Positions 35,563-41,148 of a stretch of 64,000 bases of DNA are shown here, in pieces. The notes beneath the pieces are model-generated. The model worked only from the letters and a program-made list of their open reading frames with translations. It was not told the origin of the DNA and made no database searches. A program made the position numbers and the translations under genes. The first letter of the stretch is position 1; each line of letters opens with the position of its first letter. This DNA is from Woeseiaceae bacterium (GTDB taxonomy: Bacteria > Pseudomonadota > Gammaproteobacteria > Steroidobacterales > Woeseiaceae), in assembly GCA_028280615.1 (NCBI GenBank), contig JANQLK010000002.1, positions 62,001-126,000 on the forward strand, written 5' to 3'.

Positions 35563-35946
35563 GTGGGGTGTAGAAAACTTCCAACATCACCGGCGAGCCC
35601 ATTCTATGGATATCCTGCGGAGTTAATCGCCGAGTGGTGTGGTGTTTCTGTTGGAACAGCGCGTCACTACAAAGCTGGCCGCCGCAAGCCCCCTACTCCC
35701 GTGCTCCGCCTGTTTCGCCTTGATAGAGATGGCAAAGTTCTTGACGATGCTTGGGTCGACTTTCGATTTTCAAAAGAAATCATGTACGGTCTGGATGGAA
35801 GACCCGTAAGGCCGAATGATATCGTACTCATTGGACTTGTCTGGCAAGCATTGGCGAACTCAGATTCGAAAGCTTATCAAAGACTACTCGAACATCATCC
35901 CGCTGCGGGCCGAGCATCGCGCAGCCACTCGTTGATATACGTATAA
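35563..35946 (+). CDS. Phage-type DUF3653-like HTH protein
   Basis: YPAELIAEWCGVSVGTARHYKAGRRKPPTPVLRLFRLDRDGKVLDDAWVDFRF resembles DUF3653 phage proteins. Confidence 0.6.
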   Translation: MGCRKLPTSPASPFYGYPAELIAEWCGVSVGTARHYKAGRRKPPTPVLRLFRLDRDGKVLDDAWVDFRFSKEIMYGLDGRPVRPNDIVLIGLVWQALANSDSKAYQRLLEHHPAAGRASRSHSLIYV

Positions 35947-36956
35947 AGCGTGAGGTGATCAACCCCGCAAAGCTCGAGGAATTTGACGGAGGCTTCCGGG
36001 TTCGGATCGATTACATAGACCCTTTTTGAATCATTTGCACGCATATTTTCGCTGATCAATATCCTCGCCTCTAGATCGAGCGGTGGGCATGAGTATCCTG
36101 CCACTACGACACGATCCGCATCTCGTAGTAGTGCCGCAGCTTTTGCCCAAAGCGACAGGACATCGCGTTGCATCATTCCTCTTTTTCCACTGACGGGCGG
36201 CACGATAATTGGCTTCATGTGAACCATTTTTTGATTCCGCCTCCAGGACAAATTGTCGGGTATCAGCGTTGAGTCGAGTACGTGAAGGACGCGTTTCTCA
36301 TTTAGTAGGGCACTCGGACTCGGCCGGGCAGAAGTGTGAACTGATTGCCAGTTCATCGACCCATGAAGCTTCAAAACACCAACGCCTTCATGCTTGTAAT
36401 CCTCTGAGACGAATTGGGGCATTCCCTCAACAGGAGGAATCCTTGTAATTCCTTTGAGGCGATAGCATCCAGGAAATCGAAATACATCCTCTCGACCATG
36501 CTCTGCAATTTGTTCTAGGGCTCTTTCGAGGACCAGATCATAATTGAACGTGATGATATTGAGATCCTCGGGATTCTCTACCTTTCTTAGTTCGCTTAGT
36601 ATGAACCGGTAGACCAAAGACCGAGGACCAATTGATACTGGGTTTGTGGTCTTGGCGAGGACGCTGTTGAGAAGATACAGAAGGTTCAAGAATCCCTTGT
36701 GGTAAGTGCTACCGTTTGGAGAGTCGATAGCCTTCATGTACAAGTATGTTGTCGCTGTTTCTAATGAAGAACACAGGCTATCAGCGTAGTCACCCACAAG
36801 TGACTTTAGGCAACGAACCACCGCAGCAGTCTTCTGCGGATGAATAGCGGCCGCTATTTCGAAAAAATCGCGATCTAGAGGAGCGCGCCGGGAGATAGAT
36901 GCTCGTGGGCGATTTGCCCTAGTTACACCTGCGCCCAAAAGCATGACTGTTTTCAT
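35895..36956 (-). CDS. SIR2-like domain protein (candidate NADase/defence effector)
   Basis: VMLLGAGVTRA, LNIITFNYDLVLERAL, VLKLHGSMNW, MKPIIVPPVSGK, ADRVVVAGYSCPPLDLEARILI; start at MKTVMLLGAG. Confidence 0.75.
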   Translation of the reverse strand: MKTVMLLGAGVTRANRPRASISRRAPLDRDFFEIAAAIHPQKTAAVVRCLKSLVGDYADSLCSSLETATTYLYMKAIDSPNGSTYHKGFLNLLYLLNSVLAKTTNPVSIGPRSLVYRFILSELRKVENPEDLNIITFNYDLVLERALEQIAEHGREDVFRFPGCYRLKGITRIPPVEGMPQFVSEDYKHEGVGVLKLHGSMNWQSVHTSARPSPSALLNEKRVLHVLDSTLIPDNLSWRRNQKMVHMKPIIVPPVSGKRGMMQRDVLSLWAKAAALLRDADRVVVAGYSCPPLDLEARILISENMRANDSKRVYVIDPNPEASVKFLELCGVDHLTLYTYINEWLRDARPAAG

Positions 36957-37206
36957 ACACCACTCTCGCGGAAATACAATGGCCTCGGTCAGCCGCAATC
37001 CTACAGTGTGTATGGAGTACAAGGCACTGATTGAGCGGGATTTTTACTGAAGGGTGCGCGGAAAAGGGCATTTTTCTCGGACAAGAGCACAAATCGCTCG
37101 AGTACAGGCGCCCGCAAAACCGTGTAAACAAAGTGAAAACCGCGATTTTCATATGTAAGAACTTGAATACATCATGCGCATATTCGGCACGCAACCGGCA
37201 TCGGGT

Positions 37207-37931: not shown

Positions 37932-38825
37932 TTACGCTGTGGGCGGATTTGGCTCGAACAGCCATTTTCTGAATACTGCTTGGTCGAAGTGACCACCGTC
38001 GGACTCGCCAGCTACTCCTACGCCGTTATCCGCAAGATAGGTCGCAAGTTGAGAACCTGAAAATACAATCAATCCAGCCTTTCTGGCCAGCTCCTTGGCA
38101 CCCGAAGTAAATTCTCCTGTGGAGAAGAATACTGCAAGTAGCGGACCGAAGGGTGACACTGAGACGCCGTCGAATAAGTCCACTTTTTCATTCGAAAAAG
38201 TGCGTGTACGAGAAAGCGACATAGCTCCGATCAACTCCCTAACAAGGTTCGGCCCGATCTTGTTTTTGGGGTAGTGTTTCGCCTGGCCGACAATCGTAAA
38301 GCGAACATTGTGGCTTAGGTGAAAGAAGCCCTCCGGCAGTCCACCGAACTGAGCAACTGAGATCTCACCATAGAAGTCTATTCCTTGGTCATTCGAACTT
38401 GCGGTCACCTTGGCATTATCGGCTCCAAGCTGTTGAAGAACCCTCCGCCCAAATAATTCGAACTCACTAAAGCTAAGATCGCGCATTTGTTCTTGTATAT
38501 CCGCCGCAAAGATTCTAGTCGCCTTTGCTGACGCAACCATCGGCTCATCAGTGTTTAGCACAAAGCATGAACCAGAGACCAAATCACTGGAGGCTCCCTG
38601 AAGCCTGAGTATTGGGATTCCCCCAGATGAAGTTAGCTCTTGATCCCGCTCGTCGATCAACTGCCTAGTCGCCGCAAACAGTTTCTCTGCACGCTCGGCT
38701 GCAACTAGCGGAGATTCGCTACTTTCGACCAATACCTGCTCGATCGCCGATTTCAAATGTATAGATCTGCCGTCAATCCCCAGTTCAGTCTCAAGGTGCC
38801 TAACAATGTCGGAGGACGATAGCAC
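37932..38825 (-). CDS. Mrr-like restriction endonuclease-fold protein, GTG start
   Basis: LSFSEFELFGRRVLQQLGADNAKVTASSNDQGIDFYGEI...FTIVGQAKHYPKNKIGPNLVRELIGAM: D-QxK pattern of Mrr_cat; overlaps the ParB-like stop (TAGTG). Confidence 0.75.
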   Translation of the reverse strand: MLSSSDIVRHLETELGIDGRSIHLKSAIEQVLVESSESPLVAAERAEKLFAATRQLIDERDQELTSSGGIPILRLQGASSDLVSGSCFVLNTDEPMVASAKATRIFAADIQEQMRDLSFSEFELFGRRVLQQLGADNAKVTASSNDQGIDFYGEISVAQFGGLPEGFFHLSHNVRFTIVGQAKHYPKNKIGPNLVRELIGAMSLSRTRTFSNEKVDLFDGVSVSPFGPLLAVFFSTGEFTSGAKELARKAGLIVFSGSQLATYLADNGVGVAGESDGGHFDQAVFRKWLFEPNPPTA

Positions 38826-39928
38826 TACTTCATGAACTTGCGTACATTAGCGATGAGGGACGATATTTCGTCGAAGACTCTCTTTGCTTTGTCACTTGGC
38901 GAAAACCATGCGTCCACACTCGGCCGTCGCAGAGAGTTCAACGACGAAACGAGCGACTGCTCAAGCAATCCTGTTTCATCTATTTCCGCCTCATTCTCCG
39001 CAGCCTCTACCGCCTCCTCGAAAGGCCTCTCGGGATCGGCCAGTAGCTTCAACGGCGTGTCTTTATCAACGATGTCCTTTAACTGACGCACTTGCCGGTT
39101 TGCATTCTGCAATTTGGGAGGCAAGGTCGCTCCGTCGATGACTCGTGGGCTTAGTAATTCGTAGAATATTCGACGATTCGCGTCGTCGTTGGCTTCGTAG
39201 TGATCATCGCGAAAGTCCAACCACTCTCGCACCTTTGGTTGTGACATCGCTTCGTGAAAGAAAGAGTAGAGACGAGGCGTCGCGTATTCGGAGAACTCGT
39301 CATCTTCTTCCATCTGCTGAAGTGCTTTTGAGGCTCGATATCGGCGACCCACTTCTGTAGCAGATATGCCTATTCTCTGGGCTACTGCGCCGAATGCTTC
39401 TTCCTCTTCATCGTAAAGCTCGACTACAAGCTTAGCTTGCTGGTACGGTCCCCATTCCCTAATGCCTGCCACGTGACGAATTGCCATTAGAGTGCTCTTA
39501 TATCTCTTTCGCTCCCCGTCAGATCCAATAACCTCGATTACCGAGAGCTCGGTAAGAGTTTTCATGATCTCTTGATCAATATCCTCCGCCCCGGATTTTT
39601 GATCCGCGAGGAGAATCTTCACAGCCGCAGCTCTTCTATTGCCTTCAATGACCAAGAATAGGGGCTTGCTGTCGTCGGGAGTCGAGAACTCCTCAACCAC
39701 TATCTGTTCAACTGGAATGAAGCCATTCGATCGAATTGACTCTTTTAGGGCGCCTAGCTCAAATGCACTCGTACCTTCCAGCAGAGTCAATGCTCGGTCC
39801 TGAACTCCGCTTTCCGAGTATCTGCTGCGTTGTGCGACTCTCTTGTATCCGGGAATGTCGTGGAATCGGTAGTTATTGGGATCCAGTAGCAATTGATCTG
39901 GATGGACGGTCCTTTTTTCTGTTTCCAT
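38825..39928 (-). CDS. ParB/Srx-like domain protein
   Basis: VHPDQLLLDPNNYRF...LGALKESIRSNGFIPVEQIVV...PLFLVIEGNRRAAAVKIL...RIGISATEVGRRYRASKALQQM. Confidence 0.75.
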   Translation of the reverse strand: METEKRTVHPDQLLLDPNNYRFHDIPGYKRVAQRSRYSESGVQDRALTLLEGTSAFELGALKESIRSNGFIPVEQIVVEEFSTPDDSKPLFLVIEGNRRAAAVKILLADQKSGAEDIDQEIMKTLTELSVIEVIGSDGERKRYKSTLMAIRHVAGIREWGPYQQAKLVVELYDEEEEAFGAVAQRIGISATEVGRRYRASKALQQMEEDDEFSEYATPRLYSFFHEAMSQPKVREWLDFRDDHYEANDDANRRIFYELLSPRVIDGATLPPKLQNANRQVRQLKDIVDKDTPLKLLADPERPFEEAVEAAENEAEIDETGLLEQSLVSSLNSLRRPSVDAWFSPSDKAKRVFDEISSLIANVRKFMK

Positions 39929-39958: not shown

Positions 39959-40150
39959 ATGGATGGCCTTCGAAGCGTGTCGTCGGATAATATCAAAACT
40001 GCACCCGATATTATTTGCGCTGCCTACGATCATTTCGGAGACCATATCTATATCGGAGGTTCCCCTCTTGCATTCGGACGCGGAGTTGTTGGTATTTTGC
40101 AGAAATGCGTTCTGCTAGTCAGCCGGAACGCAAAGGTTGTTACGAGTTGA
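39959..40150 (+). CDS. 63-aa ORF preceding protease (TGA overlaps possible TTG start)
   Basis: MDGLRSVSSDNIKTAPDIICAAYDHFGDHIYIGGSPLAFGRGVVGILQKCVLLVSRNAKVVTS; TTGA overlap at 40147-40150. Confidence 0.35.
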   Translation: MDGLRSVSSDNIKTAPDIICAAYDHFGDHIYIGGSPLAFGRGVVGILQKCVLLVSRNAKVVTS

Positions 40151-41148
40151 CGGACACAAAGAGACATCGATATTCGGTGCTCGCACCGATTCCAATAGAA
40201 ACCAAACTTGAGCTCGCTTCTCTGGCAGTCGAGTTCTTCTCGCCCGTTTCTTATCGACAAATGTGCAAGGTCATTGGTATCGACGATGGAGAAGCAATTA
40301 GACCGCTATCGGGTCGTGATTTTCTCAAGTATCTAAAGGCTATGAAGGCCCTGAATGATCCTGACCAATATCTTTGGCAGATTCGCACTCTGCTTCGGGA
40401 TATGTGTTCGGCGGACATCTTGACAGACATGGGAATTGGAAGCGACGTCCTCATCGGGCGACACTATTACTATCAAAGAGAGCTCACAAATCTCGAGAGA
40501 ATGGGGAAGCTCTGGCTGGCCCCAGCGCTTGGCCCTGAGTATATTTACAGAGTGTATTCGGCAGCCACCTGCCAGATTATCGGAACCCTAAAAGGAGAAG
40601 GCCGAGCTGGCACAGCTCTAATTGTCGCACCGAACTGGCTCTTGACTTGCGCTCATGTTATCAGGGACATGGCCGTATCCGAGCAGCAATACTTGCGCGA
40701 TCAGCATTTCACGGTGACAGACACGCTTGCGCACGAGTCAATTGACATTGGCCTGGTAAAGACATTGGAGGAATTGCCAGTCACTCCGGGTTTGTCCTTT
40801 CGAGACCCGAGGGTGGGCGAACCCGTGTTCACGATCGGCTATCCACGAATTCCCCTTTCAAAGGAGTCAAGCTTGATCCTGCATCGTGGCGAGATTACAA
40901 ATCCAGAGATGACGATGATGTCTGGCGACAAGATATTCACCTACTCTGCGATTGCAAGACCAGGGAATAGCGGCGGACCCATAGTTGGAGAACACGGATC
41001 AGTGATTGGCGTCGTTACTCATGAACTCGCACAAGATTGTGAGCGCCCCGGGAGTCCATTCTTCGCGGGAATCGGAACGGCTGAGATAGCGACATCTGTG
41101 CGCGCCCTTGCCCCTGATCTCGTGCTGCCAGTCGAAACATACGAATAG
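40015..41148 (+). CDS. Trypsin-like serine protease with about 150-aa N-terminal domain of unknown function (true start possibly TTG 40147)
   Basis: Catalytic triad context: GTALIVAPNWLLTCAHVI (His), ESIDIGLVK (Asp), IARPGNSGGPIVG (Ser). Confidence 0.8.
   Translation: MRCLRSFRRPYLYRRFPSCIRTRSCWYFAEMRSASQPERKGCYELTDTKRHRYSVLAPIPIETKLELASLAVEFFSPVSYRQMCKVIGIDDGEAIRPLSGRDFLKYLKAMKALNDPDQYLWQIRTLLRDMCSADILTDMGIGSDVLIGRHYYYQRELTNLERMGKLWLAPALGPEYIYRVYSAATCQIIGTLKGEGRAGTALIVAPNWLLTCAHVIRDMAVSEQQYLRDQHFTVTDTLAHESIDIGLVKTLEELPVTPGLSFRDPRVGEPVFTIGYPRIPLSKESSLILHRGEITNPEMTMMSGDKIFTYSAIARPGNSGGPIVGEHGSVIGVVTHELAQDCERPGSPFFAGIGTAEIATSVRALAPDLVLPVETYE

Follow-up and report, generated by a model that had tools for sequence, protein, structure and literature searches.

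A co-conserved ParB-Mrr gene pair of a Woeseiaceae bacterium, probably a small and so far unnamed defence system

Analysis of a stretch of 64,000 nucleotides from the genome of a Woeseiaceae bacterium (referred to here as the window) identified a ParB-like gene directly followed by a gene encoding an Mrr-family nuclease, and this genuine, co-conserved cassette is probably a small and so far unnamed defence system against foreign DNA. The explanation we favour, with somewhat more confidence than doubt, is a horizontally spread, methylase-free restriction module of two subunits, in which the ParB-like protein would provide NTP-dependent DNA recognition and the Mrr-type protein cleavage. The observations behind it are the co-conservation of the two genes, their tight coupling, correlated divergence and intact active-site residues, together with the predicted folds, a patchy distribution across phyla and the location of some copies beside known defence genes; from these we infer a physical complex, NTP use, a DNA target, cleavage and an anti-phage effect of the pair. 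In the proposed mechanism, the ParB-like protein would bind DNA via its helix-turn-helix (HTH) region, its NTP-binding ParB fold would act as a switch recognising foreign or replicating-phage DNA, and it would then recruit or activate the Mrr-type PD-(D/E)XK nuclease which, having no reader domain of its own, would cut the bound DNA; ParB could equally restrain the nuclease instead. The features of the pair are listed in Table 1.

Table 1. Positions of the two genes and of their domains and motifs in the window.
Feature	Position	Strand	Residues	Description or basis
ParB-like gene	38825..39928	-		ATG start, 367 aa
ParB N-domain	within ParB-like gene 38825..39928	-	about 1-160	AF2, Foldseek
HTH region of ParB-like protein			about 161-240	followed by an unclassified helical C-terminal part
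EGNRR motif, ParB-like protein	39632..39646	-	95-99	alignment of relatives
RHVAGIREW motif, ParB-like protein	39452..39478	-	151-159	alignment of relatives
Helix-turn-helix, ParB-like protein	39335..39394	-	about 179-198	Pfam HTH matches in relatives and AF2 helices
TAGTG junction, ParB-like gene/nuclease gene	38823..38827	-		sequence
Mrr-family PD-(D/E)XK nuclease gene	37932..38825	-		GTG start, 297 aa; PF04471
N-terminal region of nuclease			1-66	predicted helical
Catalytic domain of nuclease			about 107-260	
DQGID motif, nuclease	38376..38390	-	146-150	family alignment
GQAK motif, nuclease	38277..38288	-	180-183	QxK half of active site; family alignment

An earlier note made from the DNA letters had described the two genes as overlapping on the minus strand at a TAGTG junction, and had assigned their products to the ParB type and to an Mrr type with an intact D...QxK active site; all three statements were borne out. 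At the junction, ATG AAG TAG TG, the ParB-like TAG stop codon ends in a G that also opens the nuclease GTG start codon and is the one base that both open reading frames have in common. The stoichiometric co-expression that the note had read into this overlap would be consistent with such an arrangement. The junction type varies among loci, with TAGTG in the window and 4-nt overlaps (ATGA, GTGA or TTGA) or short gaps elsewhere, and it is therefore tight coupling, and not one exact junction, that is conserved. The nuclease gene is the only Mrr_cat gene detected in a genome-wide search of the window genome (4.57 Mb, 58 contigs).

Regarding the ParB-like protein, Pfam made no ParB assignment for the window protein alone, while ParB_N was matched by 12 of its 30 close relatives (best 4.3e-6) and many relatives match HTH families of Pfam. 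The AlphaFold2 (AF2) model (pLDDT 90.3) has helices at residues 161-175, 179-186 and 190-208, and its Foldseek matches, which span the N-domain and the HTH, are Noc, RK2 KorB and CTP/CDP-bound ParB (prob 1.00, E down to 2.6e-5); the TM-scores are modest, at about 0.2-0.35 on the query, and thus point to a ParB-like topology with a different domain placement. The EGNRR sequence aligns with the GERR/GFRR nucleotide-binding motif of ParB, in a sequence match that is non-significant (E 0.2-0.3), and is invariant in all 30 relatives, as are R151, H152, G155 and W159 of RHVAGIREW. The window protein has the ParB N-domain fold, the GxRR motif and the HTH, and is classed on these features with the ParB-CTPase fold; proteins with a ParB fold can bind CTP, ATP or GTP (PMC12704722).

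The nuclease matches PF04471 Mrr_cat with an E value of 1.6e-13 (bit score 51.3, cut-off 21), and this domain was found in all 27 nuclease proteins scanned, that of the window included. Every family member retains E123, D146, G148 and D150, and each of the 26 complete ones also retains G180, Q181, K183 and R196; these invariant D-x-G-x-D...G-Q-x-K residues identify a PD-(D/E)XK nuclease of the D...QxK form; Mrr_cat with D150, Q181 and K183 places the window protein in the Mrr/PD-(D/E)XK superfamily. The structures nearest to its AF2 model (pLDDT 90.6) in Foldseek are MspJI and AspBHI, followed by FokI. Pfam detected no reader domain (Mrr_N winged helix or SRA) in the window nuclease or 26 relatives. 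Searches of PDB sequences with the single window proteins as queries gave no relevant match, profiles being needed for this purpose.

A lack of co-conservation, which the earlier note had named as a ground for refutation, was not borne out. A scan of the genome contigs of 85,462 species, seeded with three ParB proteins from pairs identified beforehand, returned 34 loci. Seven were set aside because a contig end lies at or near the ParB gene (L054, L065, L073, L075-L078), and the Stappia locus, also one of the three seeds, was counted once (L016 = L061). An Mrr-family gene lies directly downstream of ParB on the same strand in 26 of the 27 loci with readable downstream sequence, a proportion that, given the paired seeds, holds for this ParB subfamily. 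In 25 of these 26, a plausible nuclease start falls in the interval from 23 nt upstream to 10 nt downstream of the ParB stop codon, the remaining one (L068) having a shortened nuclease frame. The same arrangement is present on an IMG/VR contig with bacterial transporter genes (L044), where ParB is 64-65% identical. When a nuclease profile was used to search 399 genomes of the phylum, the only strong matches were the window and the Stappia genome (G558), both paired with ParB, and three weak ones (E about 1e-11) were Mrr proteins of the ordinary kind, which have an N-terminal region of their own and lack ParB. The window-type nuclease thus seems to be an Mrr subfamily that occurs with ParB.

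Several loci depart from this arrangement. Apparently decayed copies are found at L060:7077-7649, with a truncated nuclease beside an intact ParB, at L068:7131-7604, with the shortened nuclease frame, and, in a metagenome assembly, at L051:5150-6258, where ParB is split and the nuclease intact. At L072:466-2204 a close ParB relative precedes, instead of Mrr, a protein of 233 aa that seems to end in two membrane helices, and a PbeC/DndD-like gene adjoins it. Three ParB-like genes stand in tandem in a genome of the window's order (L003:33-3218).

The two families have also diverged together. Pairwise distances of 24 ParB/Mrr pairs are correlated with r = 0.84 in a mirror-tree analysis, a value reached by none of 9,999 permutations (best 0.55), and the maximum-likelihood trees have seven clades in common, including a seven-member clade containing the window (support 100/100 and 96/99). 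The hosts belong to at least six phyla: Pseudomonadota, Acidobacteriota, Actinomycetota, Bacillota, Gemmatimonadota and Thermodesulfobacteriota. The window clade includes Methylosinus, Ancylobacter and Erythrobacter (Alphaproteobacteria), Caballeronia (Betaproteobacteria) and an Acidobacteriia MAG, and the ParB proteins of its Alphaproteobacteria, Betaproteobacteria and Acidobacteriota members are 60-63% identical to that of the window; such membership across phyla indicates that the pair was transferred horizontally as a unit. The window genome is alone among 297 genomes of its order in encoding a strong-scoring ParB-like protein, and the genes flanking the pair are not conserved within the genus. 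No homologue of the nuclease was found in plasmid and phage collections, where the relatives of ParB are distant ones. A viral scan with single proteins gave no match, and alignment-based viral scans gave one contig, IMGVR_UViG_3300014280_000007, which recurred in two more scans.

Regarding methylation, the earlier note's statement that no modification methylase adjoins the pair held for the C5, N6_Mtase and N6_N4 families, none of which occurs near it; genome-wide, the window genome has no C5 methylase and no N6_Mtase-family gene, and its single N6_N4 methylase is on another contig. A classical type II restriction-modification (R-M) system was rejected, as a cognate methylase beside the nuclease is absent among these families. 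The absence of a cognate methylase from the families searched in this genome is compatible with a narrower, type IV form of the favoured explanation, in which the ParB subunit would read base modifications, for example methylation or glucosylation of cytosine, and to which we give tentative credence, well short of an even chance. The closest structural relatives of the modelled nuclease, MspJI and AspBHI, cut modified DNA, and the ParB/Srx-fold proteins GmrSD, BrxU and SspE sense modified DNA (PMC10952713), both of which may point the same way; however, no known modified-base reader is recognisable in the ParB-like protein or the nuclease, and C5 cytosine methylases are encoded in 7 of 15 carrier genomes searched (four in one genome), which makes broad 5mC targeting unlikely because it would be self-harming. 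Narrow, context-dependent targeting of 5mC by the pair is possible.

The favoured restriction module, in its general form, could also recognise DNA in another manner. The ParB-like subunit may be an NTP-gated sliding clamp that loads onto DNA at its recognition site, senses the state or topology of the DNA and activates the reader-less Mrr protein, a proposal that we put forward as speculative and likelier wrong than right. If true, it would be a new principle of restriction, in which the invader is told from the host without base modification.

An upstream regulator-like HTH gene with an overlapping downstream nuclease, tightly coupled, is also typical of toxin-antitoxin operons, and DndB, a protein of the ParB family, is reported to act as a negative regulator (PMC10853773). 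ParB might accordingly be pictured as repressing and neutralising the Mrr nuclease until infection releases it to cleave host DNA, a toxin-antitoxin-like or abortive scheme that we consider improbable, since one locus retains an intact ParB with a truncated nuclease (L060), another, from a metagenome assembly, combines a split ParB with an intact nuclease (L051), which is unexpected for an essential antidote, and a palindrome or ParB operator common to the regions upstream of ParB was sought and not found.

The genes beside the copies are diverse, with no consistent third gene. Defence and mobile neighbours were picked by eye without matched control loci, as examples and not as a statistical enrichment in defence islands; they comprise Thoeris ThsA (3.8e-189) and ThsB with a helicase of the Schlafen group (L071), restriction genes of types IV and I (L062), a type IIG restriction gene (L067), a NotI-type nuclease, C5 methylase, Vsr and phage-type integrase (L046), a phage terminase (L048), DUF3644 and a transposase-type integrase (L055) and a SIR2-like gene (L066). 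Isolated copies lie by the housekeeping genes polA (L061) and uvrA (L051, L056, L063). Those by uvrA, all three from Erythrobacteraceae/Sphingomonadaceae, lie at the 3' end of the gene and occur in both orientations with ParB types that are only distantly alike, a pattern that has the look of a hotspot and not of a functional link, and suggests an insertion site used repeatedly by divergent versions of the pair. A role in DNA repair or replicon maintenance for a pair gained by transfer, as the homology of ParB to partition proteins and the copies adjoining uvrA or polA might suggest, is very improbable in view of this hotspot pattern, the very patchy distribution across phyla, the copies adjoining restriction and Thoeris genes and the fact that no ParA was identified beside the pair.

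In the window itself, a SIR2-like gene lies 0.9 kb downstream of the pair (35895-37022, minus strand), with weak matches to PF13289 (1.2e-5) and to the PADLOC models SIR2/Aga_SIR2 (about 1e-6). A trypsin-like protease gene (40015-41148, plus strand; PF13365 2.9e-18) is divergent from the ParB-like gene, and its protease domain resembles those of the RT-protease and HamA1 defence models.

Regarding known systems, PADLOC-DB holds no model of the ParB-Mrr pair, its subunits matching the unrelated candidates PDC-M38A and PDC-S02, and no description of such a pair was found in the literature covered, which lay outside subscription papers and most preprints. The earlier note's statement that this is not a named defence system therefore stands in that no named two-gene system was matched, and has to be qualified in that the ParB half matches the PADLOC candidate PDC-M38A. 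The latter contains the closest ParB module (E 7e-51 over window residues 4-317 and profile positions 8-305 of 715), and the PDC-M38 operon, like the window pair, has an overlapping downstream gene. In PDC-M38A, however, ParB is fused to an OLD/RecF-like ATPase (profile positions about 345-715), which the full-length members L011-L014 carry at the C-terminus, and the partner appears by eye to be TOPRIM-like and not Mrr (the copy in L011 has no Pfam match). Membership of PDC-M38 was rejected for the window protein, which ends at 367 aa, with a match that stops at profile position 305 and no ATPase, and PDC-M38 is a sister architecture to the ParB-Mrr pair. Counts of PDC-M38A from a search of 400 genomes were not taken as prevalence, most matches being RecF-like ATPases on the C-terminal half. 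No paper was found on PDC-M38, which is a candidate system only. One PDC-M38A copy lies between type I restriction genes (L012).

PDC-S02 has in common with the window nuclease the Mrr_cat core, in a match (3.3e-7) that covers about 54 residues of that core. Ordinary Mrr proteins carry an N-terminal region of their own and are not partnered by ParB, whereas the window nuclease is without Mrr_N. MspJI and AspBHI, the nearest solved structures of the catalytic domain, have the same D-x-G-x-D...QxK core and are modification-dependent single proteins with a built-in reader domain, while the window nuclease has no recognisable reader and is accompanied by the ParB-like protein.

More distant relatives of the ParB-like protein are found with other partners. 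PD-lambda-5_A and gp98 of phage Wphi have a related, weakly similar ParB-like N-terminal region (E about 1e-10); the authors who described PD-lambda-5 gave it the label of a methyltransferase (PMC9519451). In Wphi a predicted PD-(D/E)XK gene (gp96) lies downstream of gp98, as in the window pair, but gp96 is of another family (no Mrr_cat match) and a cytosine methylase adjoins. In phage Wphi (L004:228-2331) and a further locus (L005), both of P2-like phages, gp98 is followed by gp96 (GGLDIIAW...QCG) beside the cytosine methylase, possibly as an uncharacterised R-M-like module. Distant ParB-like proteins likewise precede members of a D-G-G-x-D...Q-x-x-x-G family in Vibrio, Neorhizobium and other genomes, plasmids and phage Wphi; this family has no Pfam match and only unknown-function PHROGs, and its assignment as a nuclease is thus by motif only. 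A gut phage-like scaffold (L006:3968-8645) has two convergent pairs of ParB-like and predicted nuclease genes, alongside a C5 methylase and a protein with a Z1 domain. These partnerships, including PDC-M38 and the Wphi gene pair, suggest a ParB sensor module shuffled among nuclease partners, and its exchangeable effectors would comprise Mrr, OLD/TOPRIM, other PD-(D/E)XK nucleases and a membrane protein.

The ParB, Noc and KorB CTP switches resemble the window ParB in fold and GxRR motif, while the window protein has no recognised chromosome-partition context and an unclassified C-terminal region. If the restriction reading is true, the pair would enlarge the defence catalogue by a compact restriction system without a methylase, and would serve as a two-gene model in which to ask how a nucleotide switch of the ParB type can exert control over a nuclease. 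In GmrSD, BrxU and SspE an NTP-binding ParB/Srx-type domain is thought to control a DNA nuclease (PMC10952713), and GmrSD and BrxU function without a cognate restriction methylase, as is proposed for the window pair. Membership of the GmrSD/SspE group was rejected on both subunits: DUF262 (GmrSD_N) had no match in the window ParB and reached E about 0.05 in only 3 of 30 relatives, and all 27 partners scanned are Mrr_cat proteins, not HNH/DUF1524 nucleases. GmrSD, BrxU and SspE combine another NTPase subfamily with HNH nucleases, whereas the window pair has a PD-(D/E)XK (Mrr) nuclease, of another fold and encoded by a separate gene; on the favoured reading, the ParB-Mrr pair is analogous to GmrSD and SspE, but made of different parts.
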